Notes under the pieces: generated by a model
Told to the model about the DNA's origin: nothing
Database searches by the model: none
Seen by the model: only the letters and a program-made list of their open reading frames with translations
Shown: positions 1 through 14,327 of the stretch, piece after piece
How positions within the stretch are numbered: the stretch's first letter is position 1
Layout: each line of letters opens with the position of its first letter
Made by a program: the position numbers and the translations under genes
NCBI RefSeq assembly: GCF_001050015.1
Contig: NZ_CVTB01000292.1
Coordinates: forward strand, 1 to 23,850
Reading direction: 5' to 3'
Length of the DNA: 23,850 nt
Source: Mycolicibacterium malmesburyense
GTDB lineage: Bacteria > Actinomycetota > Actinomycetes > Mycobacteriales > Mycobacteriaceae

Positions 1-867
1 GGGGGGATCGACGGGCCGGAAGCCCGCCTCGGCCCACAGCTTCTGCGCCTCCGGGGTGTAGGTGAAGTTCTTCAGCGCGTTGGCCTTGTCCAGGTGCGCG
101 CTCGACGTCACCACCGCGACCGGATTCTCGATCTTGAAGGTCTCCGGCGGGTTCACGTACTCCAGGCCGAAGTTCAGCGCCTCGTTCTCATAGGCCAGCA
201 GCACGTCACCGCTGCCCTGCCGGAATACGTCGGTGGCCTCACGGCCCGAACCCGGGCGCAGCCTGATGTGCTGGGTCACCAACTCGGTGACATAGTCCAG
301 GCCGGCCTGGGCATCCTGACCGCCCTTGCTGGCCCACGCATACGGCGCCAACAGATTCCACTTGGCCGAGCCGGAGCTCAGCGGGCTGGGCGTGATGACC
401 TCGACGCCCGGCTTGAGCAGATCGGGCCAGTCCCGGATGTTCTTCGGATTGCCGGGCCGCACCGCGAAGGACACCACGGAGCCGAACGGGATTCCCTTGG
501 TGGCGTCGGCGTTCCAGTCCTTGGCGACCTTGTCGGCCTTGACCAGGCGGGCAATGTCGGGTTCGACGGAGAAGTTGACGATGTCGGCGGGCTTTCCGTC
601 GACGACCGCGCGCGACTGGTCACCCGAGGCGCCATAGGACGTCGTGACACCGACACCCTCACCCTCCGGTGTGGCCGCGAAGGCGGGGATGACCTTGCTC
701 CACCCCGGCTCGGGCACGGCGTACGCGACGAGCGTCAGCGTCGTGTCGGCGCCGTTGCCGCCGTCCCCGCCCACCACGTCGCTCGAACCGCCACTGCAGG
801 CGGTGAGCACGGTGGCGGTGGTGGCCAGCGCCATGGCGGCGCGCCAGGTGTTGCGGAATTTGATCAT
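1..867 (-). CDS. subI: Sulfate-binding lipoprotein of sulfate ABC transporter (3' end outside window)
   Basis: Periplasmic-side substrate-binding component of the CysA/CysT/CysW sulfate importer. The 289 visible residues start at ATG 867. They open with a lipoprotein signal (MIKFRNTWR, hydrophobic stretch, lipobox LTAC with the acylated Cys at residue 24). The mature part shows hallmarks of the sulfate/thiosulfate-binding family: TLTLVAYAVPEPGW, a TTSYGASGDQSRAVV segment, PADIVNFSVEPD, NPKNIRDWPDLLKPGVEVITPSP and GSGRE near the C-terminal half. The reading frame is open at base 1, so about 50-60 residues are missing by family length. A good Shine-Dalgarno (GAAAGG, 879-874) lies 6 nt before the ATG. 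Upstream lies a polycysteine leader ORF that probably attenuates it. CysT/W/A genes would be expected just outside the left edge. Confidence 0.95.
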   Translation of the reverse strand, partial: MIKFRNTWRAAMALATTATVLTACSGGSSDVVGGDGGNGADTTLTLVAYAVPEPGWSKVIPAFAATPEGEGVGVTTSYGASGDQSRAVVDGKPADIVNFSVEPDIARLVKADKVAKDWNADATKGIPFGSVVSFAVRPGNPKNIRDWPDLLKPGVEVITPSPLSSGSAKWNLLAPYAWASKGGQDAQAGLDYVTELVTQHIRLRPGSGREATDVFRQGSGDVLLAYENEALNFGLEYVNPPETFKIENPVAVVTSSAHLDKANALKNFTYTPEAQKLWAEAGFRPVDPP

Positions 868-985
868 CGGTGACCTTTCGTTGGGGGATTTCGGTGGACC
901 CGACCCGACGGAAAGGCGATGGATCTCAGCGCGAGGCTTCATCCCACAACCGTTACCGACACCGAACCGCGGACGGGCGGAGGAG
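868..985 (-). promoter_or_regulatory. subI leader: candidate Shine-Dalgarno sequestration region
   Basis: This 118-nt untranslated stretch separates the stop codon of the polycysteine short ORF from the subI start. The subI Shine-Dalgarno GAAAGG (879-874) has a perfect 6-nt complement, CCTTTC, at 916-911 on the same transcript, so the ribosome site can be hidden in a hairpin with a loop of about 31 nt. In the M. smegmatis polycysteine attenuators, ribosome behaviour on the Cys codons decides whether the downstream Shine-Dalgarno is free. The pairing is seen in the sequence; its role here is inferred. Confidence 0.55.
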
Positions 986-1078
986 TCAGCAACAACAACA
1001 AACGTCGGCAACAGCGCTGTGACTCACGGCAATGAGGGCCAGCACATGGCCGCTCTTGTTGCCGGACGCCGTTTGCAT
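986..1078 (-). CDS. Polycysteine leaderless leader peptide (30 aa) upstream of subI
   Basis: Short ORF from ATG 1078 to TGA 986. It encodes 30 residues that begin MQTASGNKSG and end ADVCCCC, with four consecutive Cys codons (TGT TGT TGT TGC) directly before the stop. A TAGGCT -10 box lies exactly 7 nt before the ATG, so the transcript should start at the A of the start codon (leaderless), and no Shine-Dalgarno is needed. Polycysteine leaderless short ORFs are known in M. smegmatis as cysteine-responsive attenuators of sulfur-assimilation operons, one of them in front of the subI operon. When cysteine is scarce, ribosomes slow on the Cys codons and downstream expression rises. In-frame GTGs (1045 and 1027) are alternative starts, but the ATG fits the -10 spacing best. 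Confidence 0.85.
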   Translation of the reverse strand: MQTASGNKSGHVLALIAVSHSAVADVCCCC

Positions 1079-1085
1079 GGCGGGA

Positions 1086-1091
1086 AGCCTA
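1086..1091 (-). promoter_or_regulatory. -10 box for the polycysteine leader / subI transcript
   Basis: TAGGCT on the minus strand fits the mycobacterial TANNNT -10 consensus and is followed by 7 nt (TCCCGCC) and then the ATG of the polycysteine ORF. A TTGACG element (1118-1113) lies upstream, but with a 21-nt spacer, too long to be a confident -35. Confidence 0.6.
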
Positions 1092-1132
1092 ACAGAGTTC
1101 TCCCAACCTGCTCGTCAAGGGTTTCGGAGGCG

Positions 1133-11074: not shown

Positions 11075-12952
11075 CTACTTCTTGGCCTTGTCGGCGGACG
11101 TGTCGGTGGACAGGGCGGCGACGAACGCCTCCTGGGGCACCTCGACCCGGCCGATCGTCTTCATCCGCTTCTTGCCTTCCTTCTGCTTCTCCAGCAGCTT
11201 GCGCTTGCGGGTTATGTCGCCGCCATAGCACTTCGATAGCACGTCTTTGCGGATCGCGCGGATGTTTTCGCGAGCGATGATCTTCGATCCGATCGCCGCC
11301 TGCACCGGAACCTCGAACTGCTGGCGCGGGATGAGCTCCTTGAGCTTGGTGGTCATCTTGTTGCCGTAGGCGTACGCCGATTCCTTGTGCACGATCGCCG
11401 AGAACGCGTCGACGGGTTCGCCCTGCAGCAGGATGTCCACCTTCACCAGGTCGGACTCCTGCTCCCCCGCCTCCTCGTAGTCCAGGCTGGCGTACCCGCG
11501 GGTGCGCGATTTCAGCGCGTCGAAGAAGTCGAAGATGATCTCGCCCAGCGGCAGCGTGTAGCGCAACTCCACCCGCTCCGGCGACAGGTAGTCCATGCCG
11601 CCGAGTTCGCCGCGGCGCGACTGGCACAACTCCATGATGGTGCCGATGAACTCGCTGGGCGCGATGATCGTGGTCTTGACCACCGGCTCGTACACCGAGC
11701 GGATCTTGCCCTCCGGCCAGTCCGACGGGTTGGTGACGGTGACCTCCGAGCCGTCTTCCTGCACAACGCGATACACGACGTTGGGCGAGGTGGAGATCAG
11801 ATCGAGGTTGAATTCGCGCTCGAGACGCTCGCGGGTGATCTCCATGTGCAGCAGACCGAGAAAGCCGCTGCGGAAACCGAATCCGAGCGCCACGGAGGTC
11901 TCCGGCTCGTACGTCAACGCCGCGTCGTTGAGTTGCAGTTTGTCCAGCGCGTCGCGCAGATCCGGATAGTCCGATCCGTCAACGGGATACAGCCCCGAGT
12001 AGACCATCGGGCGCGGCTCGCGGTAGCCGGTCAGCGGTTCGGCCGCGCCGTTGCGTGCCGTCGTGACGGTGTCACCGACCTTCGACTGGCGCACGTCCTT
12101 CACGCCGGTGATGAGGTAGCCCACCTCGCCGACGCCGAGACCGGCGGACGCCTTGGGCTCCGGCGAGACGATGCCGACCTCGAGCAGTTCGTGCGTGGCG
12201 CCGGTGGACATCATCTTGATGCGTTCGCGCGGGACGATCTTGCCGTCGACGACGCGGACGTAGGTCACCACGCCGCGATAGGTGTCATAGACCGAGTCGA
12301 AGATCATCGCCCGCGCCGGGGCGTCGGCTTCGCCGACCGGGGGCGGCACCTCGCGCACGACGTGGTCGAGCAGGTCGGCCACCCCCGCGCCGGTCTTACC
12401 GGACACCCGCAGGACGTCCTCGGGTTCACAGCCGATGATGTGGGCGAGTTCGGCGGCGTAGCGGTCGGGGTCGGCCGCGGGCAGGTCGATCTTGTTGAGC
12501 ACGGGGATGATGTGCAGGTCGCGGTCGAGGGCCAGGTACAGGTTCGCCAGCGTCTGCGCCTCGATCCCCTGGGCGGCGTCGACGAGCAGCACCGCACCCT
12601 CGCAGGCCTCCAGCGCGCGCGACACCTCGTAGGTGAAGTCGACGTGGCCGGGGGTGTCGATCAGGTGCAGCACATGGCCTTCGCCGTCCAATTTCCATGG
12701 CAGGCGGACGTTCTGCGCCTTGATCGTGATGCCGCGCTCGCGCTCGATGTCCATGCGGTCGAGGTACTGCGCGCGCATGTCGCGATCGGCGACGACGCCG
12801 GTGAGTTGCAGCATCCGGTCGGCCAACGTCGATTTGCCGTGATCGATATGGGCGATGATGCAGAAGTTCCGGATCTGCGCCGGCGCCGTGAAGGTCTGAT
12901 CGGCGAAACTGCTGATGGGAATCTCCTGGTGAACGCGGACTTCGGGTGTCAC
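11075..12952 (-). CDS. lepA: Elongation factor 4 (LepA), ribosomal back-translocase GTPase
   Basis: A 625-residue translational GTPase. Motifs: G1 AHIDHGKST (residues 34-42), the switch I region [15 protein letters not shown]3 DTPGHVDF, G4 NKID, then domain II, the EF-G-like domains and the LepA-specific C-terminal domain ([23 protein letters not shown] core: [20 protein letters not shown]-terminal [23 protein letters not shown]). It acts on stalled or mis-translocated ribosomes. GTG 12952 is chosen; GTG 12982 is an in-frame alternative. The open frame continues to 13765 but runs antisense through the PemK/MazF-like gene and is not coding. The few residues before EIPISSFAD are poorly conserved in this family. 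lppR follows after 6 bp. Confidence 0.97.
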
Positions 12953-13005
12953 CAGCGTATCCAGGCACGGCCCGAAGCACACAATCGCGCCGGGTGGGCC
13001 TCGCT

Positions 13006-13011
13006 TATGCT
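13006..13011 (+). promoter_or_regulatory. -10 box of leaderless PemK/MazF-like gene
   Basis: TATGCT fits TANNNT and ends exactly 7 nt (CGGAAAT) before ATG 13019, so transcription should begin at the start codon. It lies between the divergent lepA and PemK/MazF-like genes. Confidence 0.6.
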
Positions 13012-13018
13012 CGGAAAT

Positions 13019-13618
13019 ATGCCTGCGCCCTGGAGACCGCTGCAGACCTTCCAGAGGTTCACGGAGAAGTTGGTGTTCAACGAGGCGCCGAAACTCATCC
13101 GGCAGATCGGCCAGTCCGAGACCGTGCAGCGCGGTATCCAGCAGGGCATCCGGATCGGCCTGGACGCGATCGCGGGCACCTCGAAGGAGGAACCGCCGGC
13201 GATCACCGCGGGCCGACCGGTCAGCCGTCACTTCGTGCCGACCGCCCACCGCGCGCGCAAGATCGTCTATGCCCCCGACCTCGACGGCCGCGCCGATCCG
13301 GGCGAGATCGTGTGGACGTGGGTGGTCTACGAGGACGACCCGACGCAGGGCAAGGACCGGCCCGTTCTGGTGGTCGGCCGCGACCGGTCGACGCTGCTCG
13401 GGCTGATGCTGTCCAGCCAGGACCACCACCGCGACGACCGAGACTGGGTCGCGATCGGGTCGGGCACCTGGGATTACGAGGGCCGGGCCAGTTGGGTCCG
13501 GTTGGACCGCGTGCTCGACGTCCCCGAGGACGGGATCCGCCGCGAGGGCGCGATTCTCGCCCGCGAGAAGTTCGAGGCCGTCGCCGTCCGCCTGCGCGCC
13601 GAATACTCCTGGAGCTGA
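13019..13618 (+). CDS. PemK/MazF-family-like protein, orphan
   Basis: A 199-residue protein corresponding in position to Rv2405. The C-terminal half has the PemK/MazF barrel signature: [13 protein letters not shown] (Gly95 to Asp107) and [23 protein letters not shown] (from Gly111), then an [19 protein letters not shown] end. The N-terminal 90 residues (helix-rich: [23 protein letters not shown]) are an extension not found in short MazF toxins. No antitoxin-like ORF lies next to it, so a toxin role is doubtful; the fold may serve RNA binding or another function. ATG 13019 is supported by a TATGCT box 7 nt upstream (leaderless). It is divergent from lepA and convergent with the acetyltransferase gene. 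Confidence 0.8.
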
Positions 13619-13642
13619 CCCCGCCCCCGAGGCTCCCCCGTT

Positions 13643-13707
13643 GCGCGAGCGACCGTGTCTGTGCGTTGACACGCCGCGCGCATGCGGCATTCCGCGGTCG
13701 CTCGCGG
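13643..13707. other. Structured intergenic inverted repeat, possible bidirectional terminator or mobile repeat
   Basis: In the 103-bp gap between convergent genes, 12-bp arms CGCGAGCGACCG (13644-13655) and CGGTCGCTCGCG (13695-13706) are perfect inverted repeats. The 39-nt loop holds two more hairpins: GTGTC/GACAC (13655-13659 with 13668-13672) and GCCGC/GCGGC (13673-13677 with 13684-13688). The whole folds as a cloverleaf-like element. No U-tract follows, so a classical intrinsic terminator is not shown. Elements of this look occur between genes in several mycobacterial genomes as I recall, but no second copy is seen in this window. Confidence 0.6.
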
Positions 13708-13721
13708 ACGTTTCCGAGACG

Positions 13722-14327
13722 TCAGCGCGGCTGGCGCCACATCGGCCACATGGTGGGGCCGCCATCGGGCAACGTGATCTCGCCGGTGACGTCGAACCCG
13801 AAGCGCTGGTAGTAGGCGATGTTGTCGGGGTTGCTGGACTCGAGGTATGCGGGCGCGTGCTCGGCGTCGCACCGGTCCAGACGCGAGCGCATCAACGCCT
13901 GCCCGTATCCGGTGCCGCGCACGGTCGGGTCGCTGCCGATCACGCCCAGATACCAGTGCGGTTCCTCGGGGTGATGCTGCTTCATCAGCTCGGCCATCGA
14001 CTGACCGCGCCGCACGTTGGCGCCCAGCGCCCGGATGAACGCCGGCATCATCCGCAGCTCCTGCAGCCCGCTCTGCCTCCACTCGCCCGGCGGATCCCAC
14101 AGCGCCGCGGCGCCGATGCTTCCGCCACCCGCCACCTCGACGCCCTCGGTACGCAGGAAGTGGTGGCGGATCATGGTCGCGAACATCCGCGCCAGGCCAC
14201 GCTCCCGCACGGTGTCGTCGGGCAGCATCCACTTCATCACCGGGTCGTCGTAAAACGCGCGGGCGAGCACTCCCGACATCTCACGCACGTGCCGGCGCGA
14301 CGCCGGGGCGACCTCGACGTCAGCCAC
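13722..14327 (-). CDS. GNAT-family N-acetyltransferase
   Basis: A 201-residue acetyltransferase. The acetyl-CoA pyrophosphate-binding motif is [14 protein letters not shown] (about residues 132-145, Q/R-x-x-G-x-G/A pattern in VRGTGYG), preceded by strand [11 protein letters not shown] and followed by [26 protein letters not shown], typical for the family. The N-terminus ([30 protein letters not shown]) resembles acyltransferases of the small-molecule/antibiotic type. GTG 14327 overlaps the last 8 bp of the CBS gene (GTGGCTGA), so translation is coupled. The substrate is unknown. In M. tuberculosis no such gene is recalled between Rv2405 and Rv2406c, so it is a lineage-specific member of this transcript. 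Confidence 0.9.

Follow-up and report, generated by a model that had tools for sequence, protein, structure and literature searches.

In the window (the whole stretch of 23,850 nucleotides analysed, from Mycolicibacterium malmesburyense), a short Cys-rich leader-peptide ORF (uORF) is located on the minus strand upstream of subI, the gene of a sulfate-binding lipoprotein. The features of the locus, from the subI side to the promoter, are:

1..867, minus strand: 5' part of subI, sulfate-binding lipoprotein gene, running off the window edge (match to PDB 6ddn)
874..916, minus strand: subI Shine-Dalgarno hairpin, CCTTTC (911-916) with GAAAGG (874-879), present in the centroid fold
952..993, minus strand: Cys/stop hairpin, the last Cys codons and the stop pairing with downstream GGTGTCGGTAAC, present in the centroid fold
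976..985, minus strand: pyrimidine-rich, G-poor ten bases directly 3' of the uORF stop
986..1078 including the stop, minus strand: leader-peptide ORF of 30 codons, MQTASGNKSGHVLALIAVSHSAVADVCCCC, presumably leaderless (NF042937, 36.0 bits)
989..1000, minus strand: four Cys codons TGT TGT TGT TGC (codons 27-30), followed by TGA
1012..1071, minus strand: helix H1 inside the uORF (1067-1071 with 1012-1016), one pair covarying between A-U and G-C
1027..1064, minus strand: inner uORF helices H2a (1059-1064 with 1027-1032) and H2b (1047-1051 with 1037-1041)
1079-1085, minus strand: 7-nt spacer between TAGGCT and ATG
1086..1091, minus strand: TAGGCT -10 box, with TGT just 5' of it (1094..1092) and the ATG 7 nt on

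The SubI fragment matches the SubI lipoprotein of PDB 6ddn with an E-value of 4.2e-125, and 118 nt separate the uORF stop from the subI start on the same strand. The gene that directly follows the uORF is subI, part of a sulfate ABC transporter operon; subI itself is seen in the window and the other operon genes in the close relative L001, where genes for a permease (PF00528) and for an ABC ATPase (PF00005) lie downstream of subI, a region beyond the window edge here. We take MSMEG_4533 to be subI. The first-pass annotation had described a 30-codon ORF beginning 7 nt after a TAGGCT box, closing with four Cys codons and a stop and lying upstream of the sulfate-binding gene; all of this can be read directly on the minus strand, where the ORF runs from 1078 to 986, TGT TGT TGT TGC is followed by TGA, and a gene whose product matches SubI begins at 867 on the same strand. 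The TGT preceding TAGGCT makes the promoter an extended -10.

Between the FAD oxidoreductase gene and the leader lie two small minus-strand ORFs (1133-1222 and 1219-1413), a short hydrophobic peptide and a 64-aa protein, which are also found upstream of subI in relatives and gave no match in Pfam and NCBIfam scans. Further away in the window, the longest frame of elongation factor 4 (lepA; 11075-13765, minus strand) has 896 codons, and the true start probably lies well inside it, because the family match covers residues 297-888 only.

The uORF at 1078..986 is the sole ORF of 6-60 codons in the window with a TANNNT box 6-7 nt before its ATG or GTG. In 200 dinucleotide shuffles the mean was 2.25 such ORFs, and none ended in at least two Cys. 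Conservation of the region upstream of subI across mycobacteria, proposed earlier as a check on the leader, was followed in a SubI-fragment scan of one genome per species, from which the best 80 loci of 181 relatives were kept. The frame and the Cys-Cys end are preserved: 77 of these 80 best loci carry a leaderless uORF whose end consists of two or more Cys followed by 0-4 residues, and in all 77 a TANNNT -10 box is situated 6-7 nt before the start, with the promoter consensus tcTGtTA.gcTTCgcgcCATG over 78 rows. Two of the three loci lacking a uORF call, L045 and L058, hold 153 and 0 nt upstream of subI, and the third, L075, holds 500 nt with no uORF; four of the 77 uORFs (L037, L041, L056 and L061) are far diverged. 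Since none of the shuffles gave such an ORF and 77 of 80 related loci have a CC-ending leaderless one, a chance origin of the uORF with its Cys end is very unlikely.

The comparisons that follow rest on different subsets of these leaders. Alignment A1 (76 of 78 rows) and the folding leave out L061, whose uORF has 7 codons, and L056, which is diverged and starts with GTG; alignment A2 (58 rows) also leaves out L037, L041 and 16 further rows; alignment A3 holds 77 of the 78 rows, L061 being too short; and the codon analysis is confined to the 65 of 78 uORFs of exactly 30 codons, the window included. In the alignment of 77 peptides (window in), Met1, Cys28 and Cys29 are invariant, and Gly6, His11, Ala14, Leu15, Ala17, Val18 and Ala22-Val26 are at least 90% conserved. 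Codons 28-29 read TGT TGT in 65 of 65 uORFs, in contrast to the Cys codons of subI in the same loci (57 TGC, 7 TGT). Codon 27 encodes Cys in 36 of the 65; at codon 30, 43 have Arg and 21 have Cys. Judged from these codons, the four-Cys run is a lineage-specific feature, and the leader keeps a TGT-TGT core. The pN/pS of the mycobacterial uORF is 0.45 (pN 0.189, pS 0.418), which, set against pN 0.131 and pS 0.445 for subI, points to weaker constraint on the uORF than on subI itself.

To cover the genus more broadly, a covariance model (R1) comprising the uORF and the following hairpin was built from 58 sequences. With E ≤ 0.01 as the limit, R1 has a match in 266 of 297 genus genomes; subI was found in 394 of 396 genomes at E ≤ 0.001, weakly in a few. 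Among the best 20 R1 matches, 17 have a listed subI position, and each of these 17 matches stops 75-113 nt short of subI on the same strand. In genome G010, two subI copies are each preceded by a weak leader-model match just upstream.

A diverged set was assembled from 30 genomes chosen because R1 matched them not at all or only weakly (E about 1e-12 or worse), 29 of them with a strong subI hit; sequence was retrieved for 30 of 35 places. At 25 of these 30 loci a leaderless uORF with CC and one further residue at its end is kept, some of only 17-18 codons and often with the peptide body lost, as in the 18-codon MHLTSDAPECDVFVHCCR. Of the 13 chosen genomes in which R1 found nothing, 8 still carry a CC-ending uORF. 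The 12 bases TGTTGTCGCTGA are identical in 24 of the 25 loci. The five loci without a CC uORF are L125, L138, L149, L150 and L151. At L125 and L138 the whole leader is absent and there is no room for it between the upstream small gene and subI, and these two genomes could act as natural controls; inspection of the L150 and L151 loci revealed no uORF. In L149, a 3.3-Mb mycobacterial genome, the uORF promoter and start are kept and the subI frame is open, and the terminal Cys pair is lost.

Beyond the genus, an order-wide search with the model matched 38 of 298 genomes, and five of the matches lie in genomes new to the analysis, three with subI downstream and two without. For the genera of the three with subI downstream, 18, 37 and 6 genomes were returned, none of which had been in the genus search, and 17, 37 and 5 of them match at E ≤ 0.1. 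Of the 58 loci fetched, 52 have subI downstream, and 45 of these 52 carry a leaderless uORF that passes the filter (44 GTG, 1 ATG), e.g., VSSAAEYRVRHQLALIAVGMLAVADIDCC; by eye, the body is also recognizable in the remaining seven, in which the Cys codons are followed by a few extra residues. Over the 45 uORFs the 19-codon body has a pN/pS of 0.154, and the last six residues include two Cys in 34 uORFs, a single Cys in 7 and three Cys in 4.

The structure of the leader RNA was derived by averaging single-sequence pairing over 76 leaders, because RNAalifold, when run on the full leaders aligned with gaps, predicted hardly any structure (-5.3 kcal/mol). The window leader folds better than its shuffles (z -2.2, 3 of 200 as low). 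In A1 (75 distinct rows), 90.7% of cells pair, compared with at most 57.1% paired and 44 both-side-changed cells when the partners are slid. Cells changed on both sides number 63 against 24.9 in shuffles (0 of 500 as high), and the stricter counts give 10 against 6.9 pairs with a both-side change (11 of 500) and 37 against 34.0 further pair types (32 of 500); these shuffles ignore relatedness, and shared descent makes the P values obtained across related leaders too optimistic. The covarying pair of H1 joins third codon positions on both sides, with both sides changed in 22 of 75 rows (A-U to G-C in 21) and 8 rows unpaired; the mean pairing probability of H1 is only 0.26-0.39, and the helix is absent from the minimum-energy fold of the window itself. 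In the Cys/stop hairpin 90.4% of cells are paired and one pair fails in 33 of 74 rows. Two alternative helices were rejected: the AVAD codons with GTCGGTAAC pair in 88.7% of cells with covariation not above shuffles, and CGGCAACA with the Cys codons pairs in 92.9% with no covariation. A search for direct pairing of the uORF with the Shine-Dalgarno sequence found none, and an Rfam scan of the window yielded no family at the gathering score, the best hit near the leader having E 0.33 and 16.8 bits against a cut-off of 37.

The subI Shine-Dalgarno sequence is held in a conserved hairpin, the property by which masked-Shine-Dalgarno attenuators are recognized. Across 99 leaders (2 of 101 had no recognised Shine-Dalgarno sequence and were skipped), its unpaired probability is 0.283, compared with 0.436 when the upstream arm is shuffled, and it is lower in 69 of the 99; the hairpin is stronger than its shuffled controls. 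A helix of at least five pairs with the Shine-Dalgarno sequence occurs in 79 of 101 leaders and is absent in 22, a count made without a control, and at one position of the helix 28 of 71 rows cannot pair. GCAAG near the Shine-Dalgarno sequence accompanies the arm CCTTGC in 8 of 14 leaders, versus 9 of 87 leaders without that arm.

Taken as a whole, the explanation we consider likely is that the uORF is an Ms4533A-type leader peptide of the subI sulfate-uptake operon with ribosome-stalling control. Within it, the peptide almost certainly belongs to that family, and control of subI by the leader in response to cysteine is very likely, both as judged from sequence. The transcript start, translation, the cysteine response and relief of the block by a stalled ribosome are the parts that we infer. 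Transcription would start at the A of the ATG, so that a ribosome would translate the peptide at once. With ample Cys-tRNA, the ribosome would clear the terminal Cys codons and leave, the downstream RNA would fold, the Shine-Dalgarno sequence of subI would stay in its hairpin and expression would be low. When cysteine is short, the ribosome would wait on the Cys codons, the Cys/stop hairpin could not form and subI expression would rise. As sulfate uptake feeds cysteine synthesis, the small ORF is likely a brake on sulfur assimilation, and the leader very probably lets the bacterium lower sulfate uptake when cysteine is plentiful.

How the block itself is exerted was approached by terminator search and by folding. 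No intrinsic terminator-like site was found on the minus strand of 850-1250, and one was found on the plus strand; this rules against a classical transcription attenuator and leaves Shine-Dalgarno masking or Rho as the block. Equilibrium folding of 76 leaders with a ribosome placed on the first Cys codon or on the stop codon shifted Shine-Dalgarno exposure by more than 0.05 upwards in 11 and downwards in 9 (p 0.42); a second run with the same two positions gave p 0.56, and 23 diverged leaders p 0.85. Compared with no ribosome, one on the first Cys codon left the sequence slightly freer in the 76-leader group (0.262 vs. 0.221, p 0.038), and another run of stalled against free RNA gave 15 up and 10 down among the 76 leaders. 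Every state modelled for the window leaves the Shine-Dalgarno sequence buried (unpaired 0.003-0.005). Apart from the small stalled-versus-free difference in one group, a simple anti-sequestor switch was thus not seen in ensemble folding. Because folding gave no clear on/off switch, the final step, Shine-Dalgarno unmasking or Rho termination, is one that we infer; we favour Shine-Dalgarno masking over Rho and put its chances at about even.

With the same leader peptide, the block could alternatively be Rho-dependent, the departing ribosome exposing a pyrimidine-rich Rho-loading stretch that a ribosome held on the Cys codons would cover. The ten bases after the stop fit such a stretch, with a pyrimidine fraction of 0.80, 0.72 and 0.83 and G at 0.07-0.10 in groups of 76, 25 and 45 leaders, as does the lack of an intrinsic terminator-like site on the minus strand of the leader, and Rho was put forward for mycobacterial cys leaders in 2005 (PMC1262725), by authors who graded their own Rho prediction as rather weak. 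However, the conserved pyrimidine stretch extends over only about 10 nt, some of its bases also serve in the 5' arm of the Cys/stop hairpin, and under Rho control the conserved Shine-Dalgarno hairpin would be unneeded; we consider this route less likely than masking.

A different source of the pause is proposed by reading the leader as a nascent-chain arrest peptide: when cysteine is short, the ribosome would pause owing to the peptide body inside its exit tunnel as well as to how many Cys codons there are. The low pN/pS of the body in the further genera, where 7 of 45 uORFs have a single Cys in the last six residues, speaks for it, as do the mycobacterial positions H11, A14, L15, A17, V18 and A22-V26, at least 90% conserved among 77 peptides with synonymous changes. 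Against this, the body is lost and only a CCR end kept in several mycobacterial lineages, namely L123, L124, L126-L128, L131, L133-L136 and L145, the body also encodes RNA helices, and the mycobacterial pN/pS of 0.45 indicates weaker constraint than on subI; we therefore regard arrest as unlikely. Equally speculative is its extended form, in which the conserved H-x-LALIAVG-xx-(A/S)VAD(V/I) would be a cysteine-tuned exit-tunnel arrest peptide and the mycobacterial polycysteine run would have arisen later, by amplification from an ancestor with one or two Cys that sister genera have kept. That the ORF is a chance reading frame, or the leader untranslated and without function, is exceedingly improbable given that the start, frame, -10 box and Cys codons are kept across genera, that no shuffle reproduced the ORF and that the peptide falls into the curated family NF042937.

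Returning to the leader peptide with ribosome-stalling control, the window peptide matches the NCBIfam model NF042937 ('Ms4533A family Cys-rich leader peptide') at 36.0 bits against a cut-off of 31 (E 5.9e-9), and so do 70 of 77 peptides, counting that of the window, at E ≤ 0.001. Neither NF042936 (Ms4527A) nor NF042933 (Ms5788A) recognizes the window peptide, and a Pfam scan of four leader peptides returned no family. Family membership, together with conservation before subI, upholds the likeness to the cysteine-responsive leaderless short ORFs of M. smegmatis that the first-pass annotation had drawn. Its statement that this system is thereby extended to the present genome is right in that the leader belongs to the system, but the family already has a name and a curated model, so there is no extension; and its remark that standard annotation easily misses the gene is no longer generally true, because the model library that NCBI uses for annotation has NF042937. 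The subI leader is therefore one more case of a known, curated family. The locus can serve well as a positive control when leaderless uORFs are to be read from raw sequence.

In Shell 2015 (PMC4633059), conserved leaderless uORFs, several of them Cys-rich, are described before cysA2, Rv0485 and nirA. Seliverstov 2005 (PMC1262725) proposed that mycobacterial cys operons are preceded by leader peptides with a run of Cys close to the stop, suggested Rho, and reported no conserved terminator hairpins for the actinobacterial cys leaders. Cysteine-dependent attenuation in M. smegmatis (Canestrari 2020) is cited in PMC9031893 and also in PMC9094748, and is read as translation attenuation in PMC13236596. 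Our literature search returned no paper joining subI, a uORF and cysteine, and none naming Ms4533A or NF042937; the passages of PMC9386245, PMC7790235, PMC11133741, PMC8092266 and PMC8079986 added nothing on subI. Less expected are two points: other genera conserve the amino acids of the peptide body although they have fewer Cys, and the hairpin over the Shine-Dalgarno sequence is conserved. Neither occurs in the passages of the papers cited here other than Canestrari 2020.

Compared with known systems, the leader agrees with the Ms4533A family in passing the curated cut-off and in its leaderless start and Cys-Cys end before subI, and differs from its relatives in having four terminal Cys, where 43 of 65 30-codon uORFs end in Arg. 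The subI leader may also be likened to erm-type translation attenuators. Attenuators of this type share the uORF, the stalled ribosome and the masked Shine-Dalgarno sequence; in the subI leader, unlike in these, the signal would be uncharged Cys-tRNA, and direct pairing between the uORF and the Shine-Dalgarno sequence was not found. The mechanism of translation attenuation is set out in general terms in PMC13236596. Ms4527A-family leaders (NF042936), before sirA/nirA, are likewise leaderless Cys-run uORFs before a sulfur gene, with a different -10 (CACAAT or CAGAAT), a mostly GTG start and another body (e.g., SLVARRHVDFKRVCTCCC). Cys-run uORFs before the sulfite reductase gene (sirA) were also observed at L081-L084, with a -10 of CACAAT (L081-L083) or CAGAAT (L084) at 7-nt spacing, a GTG start (ATG in L081) and a body like LVARRHVDFKRVCTCCC; scans of two of these four peptides gave, for each, a match to NF042936 and a weak one to the model NF042934 ('putative leader peptide'). 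The Ms5788A family (NF042933), before cysA2, is again a Cys-rich leaderless uORF with a different gene and peptide. Finally, the cys leader peptides of 2005 (PMC1262725) resemble the subI leader in that they, too, are encoded by short ORFs that precede mycobacterial cys operons and carry a run of Cys close to the stop.
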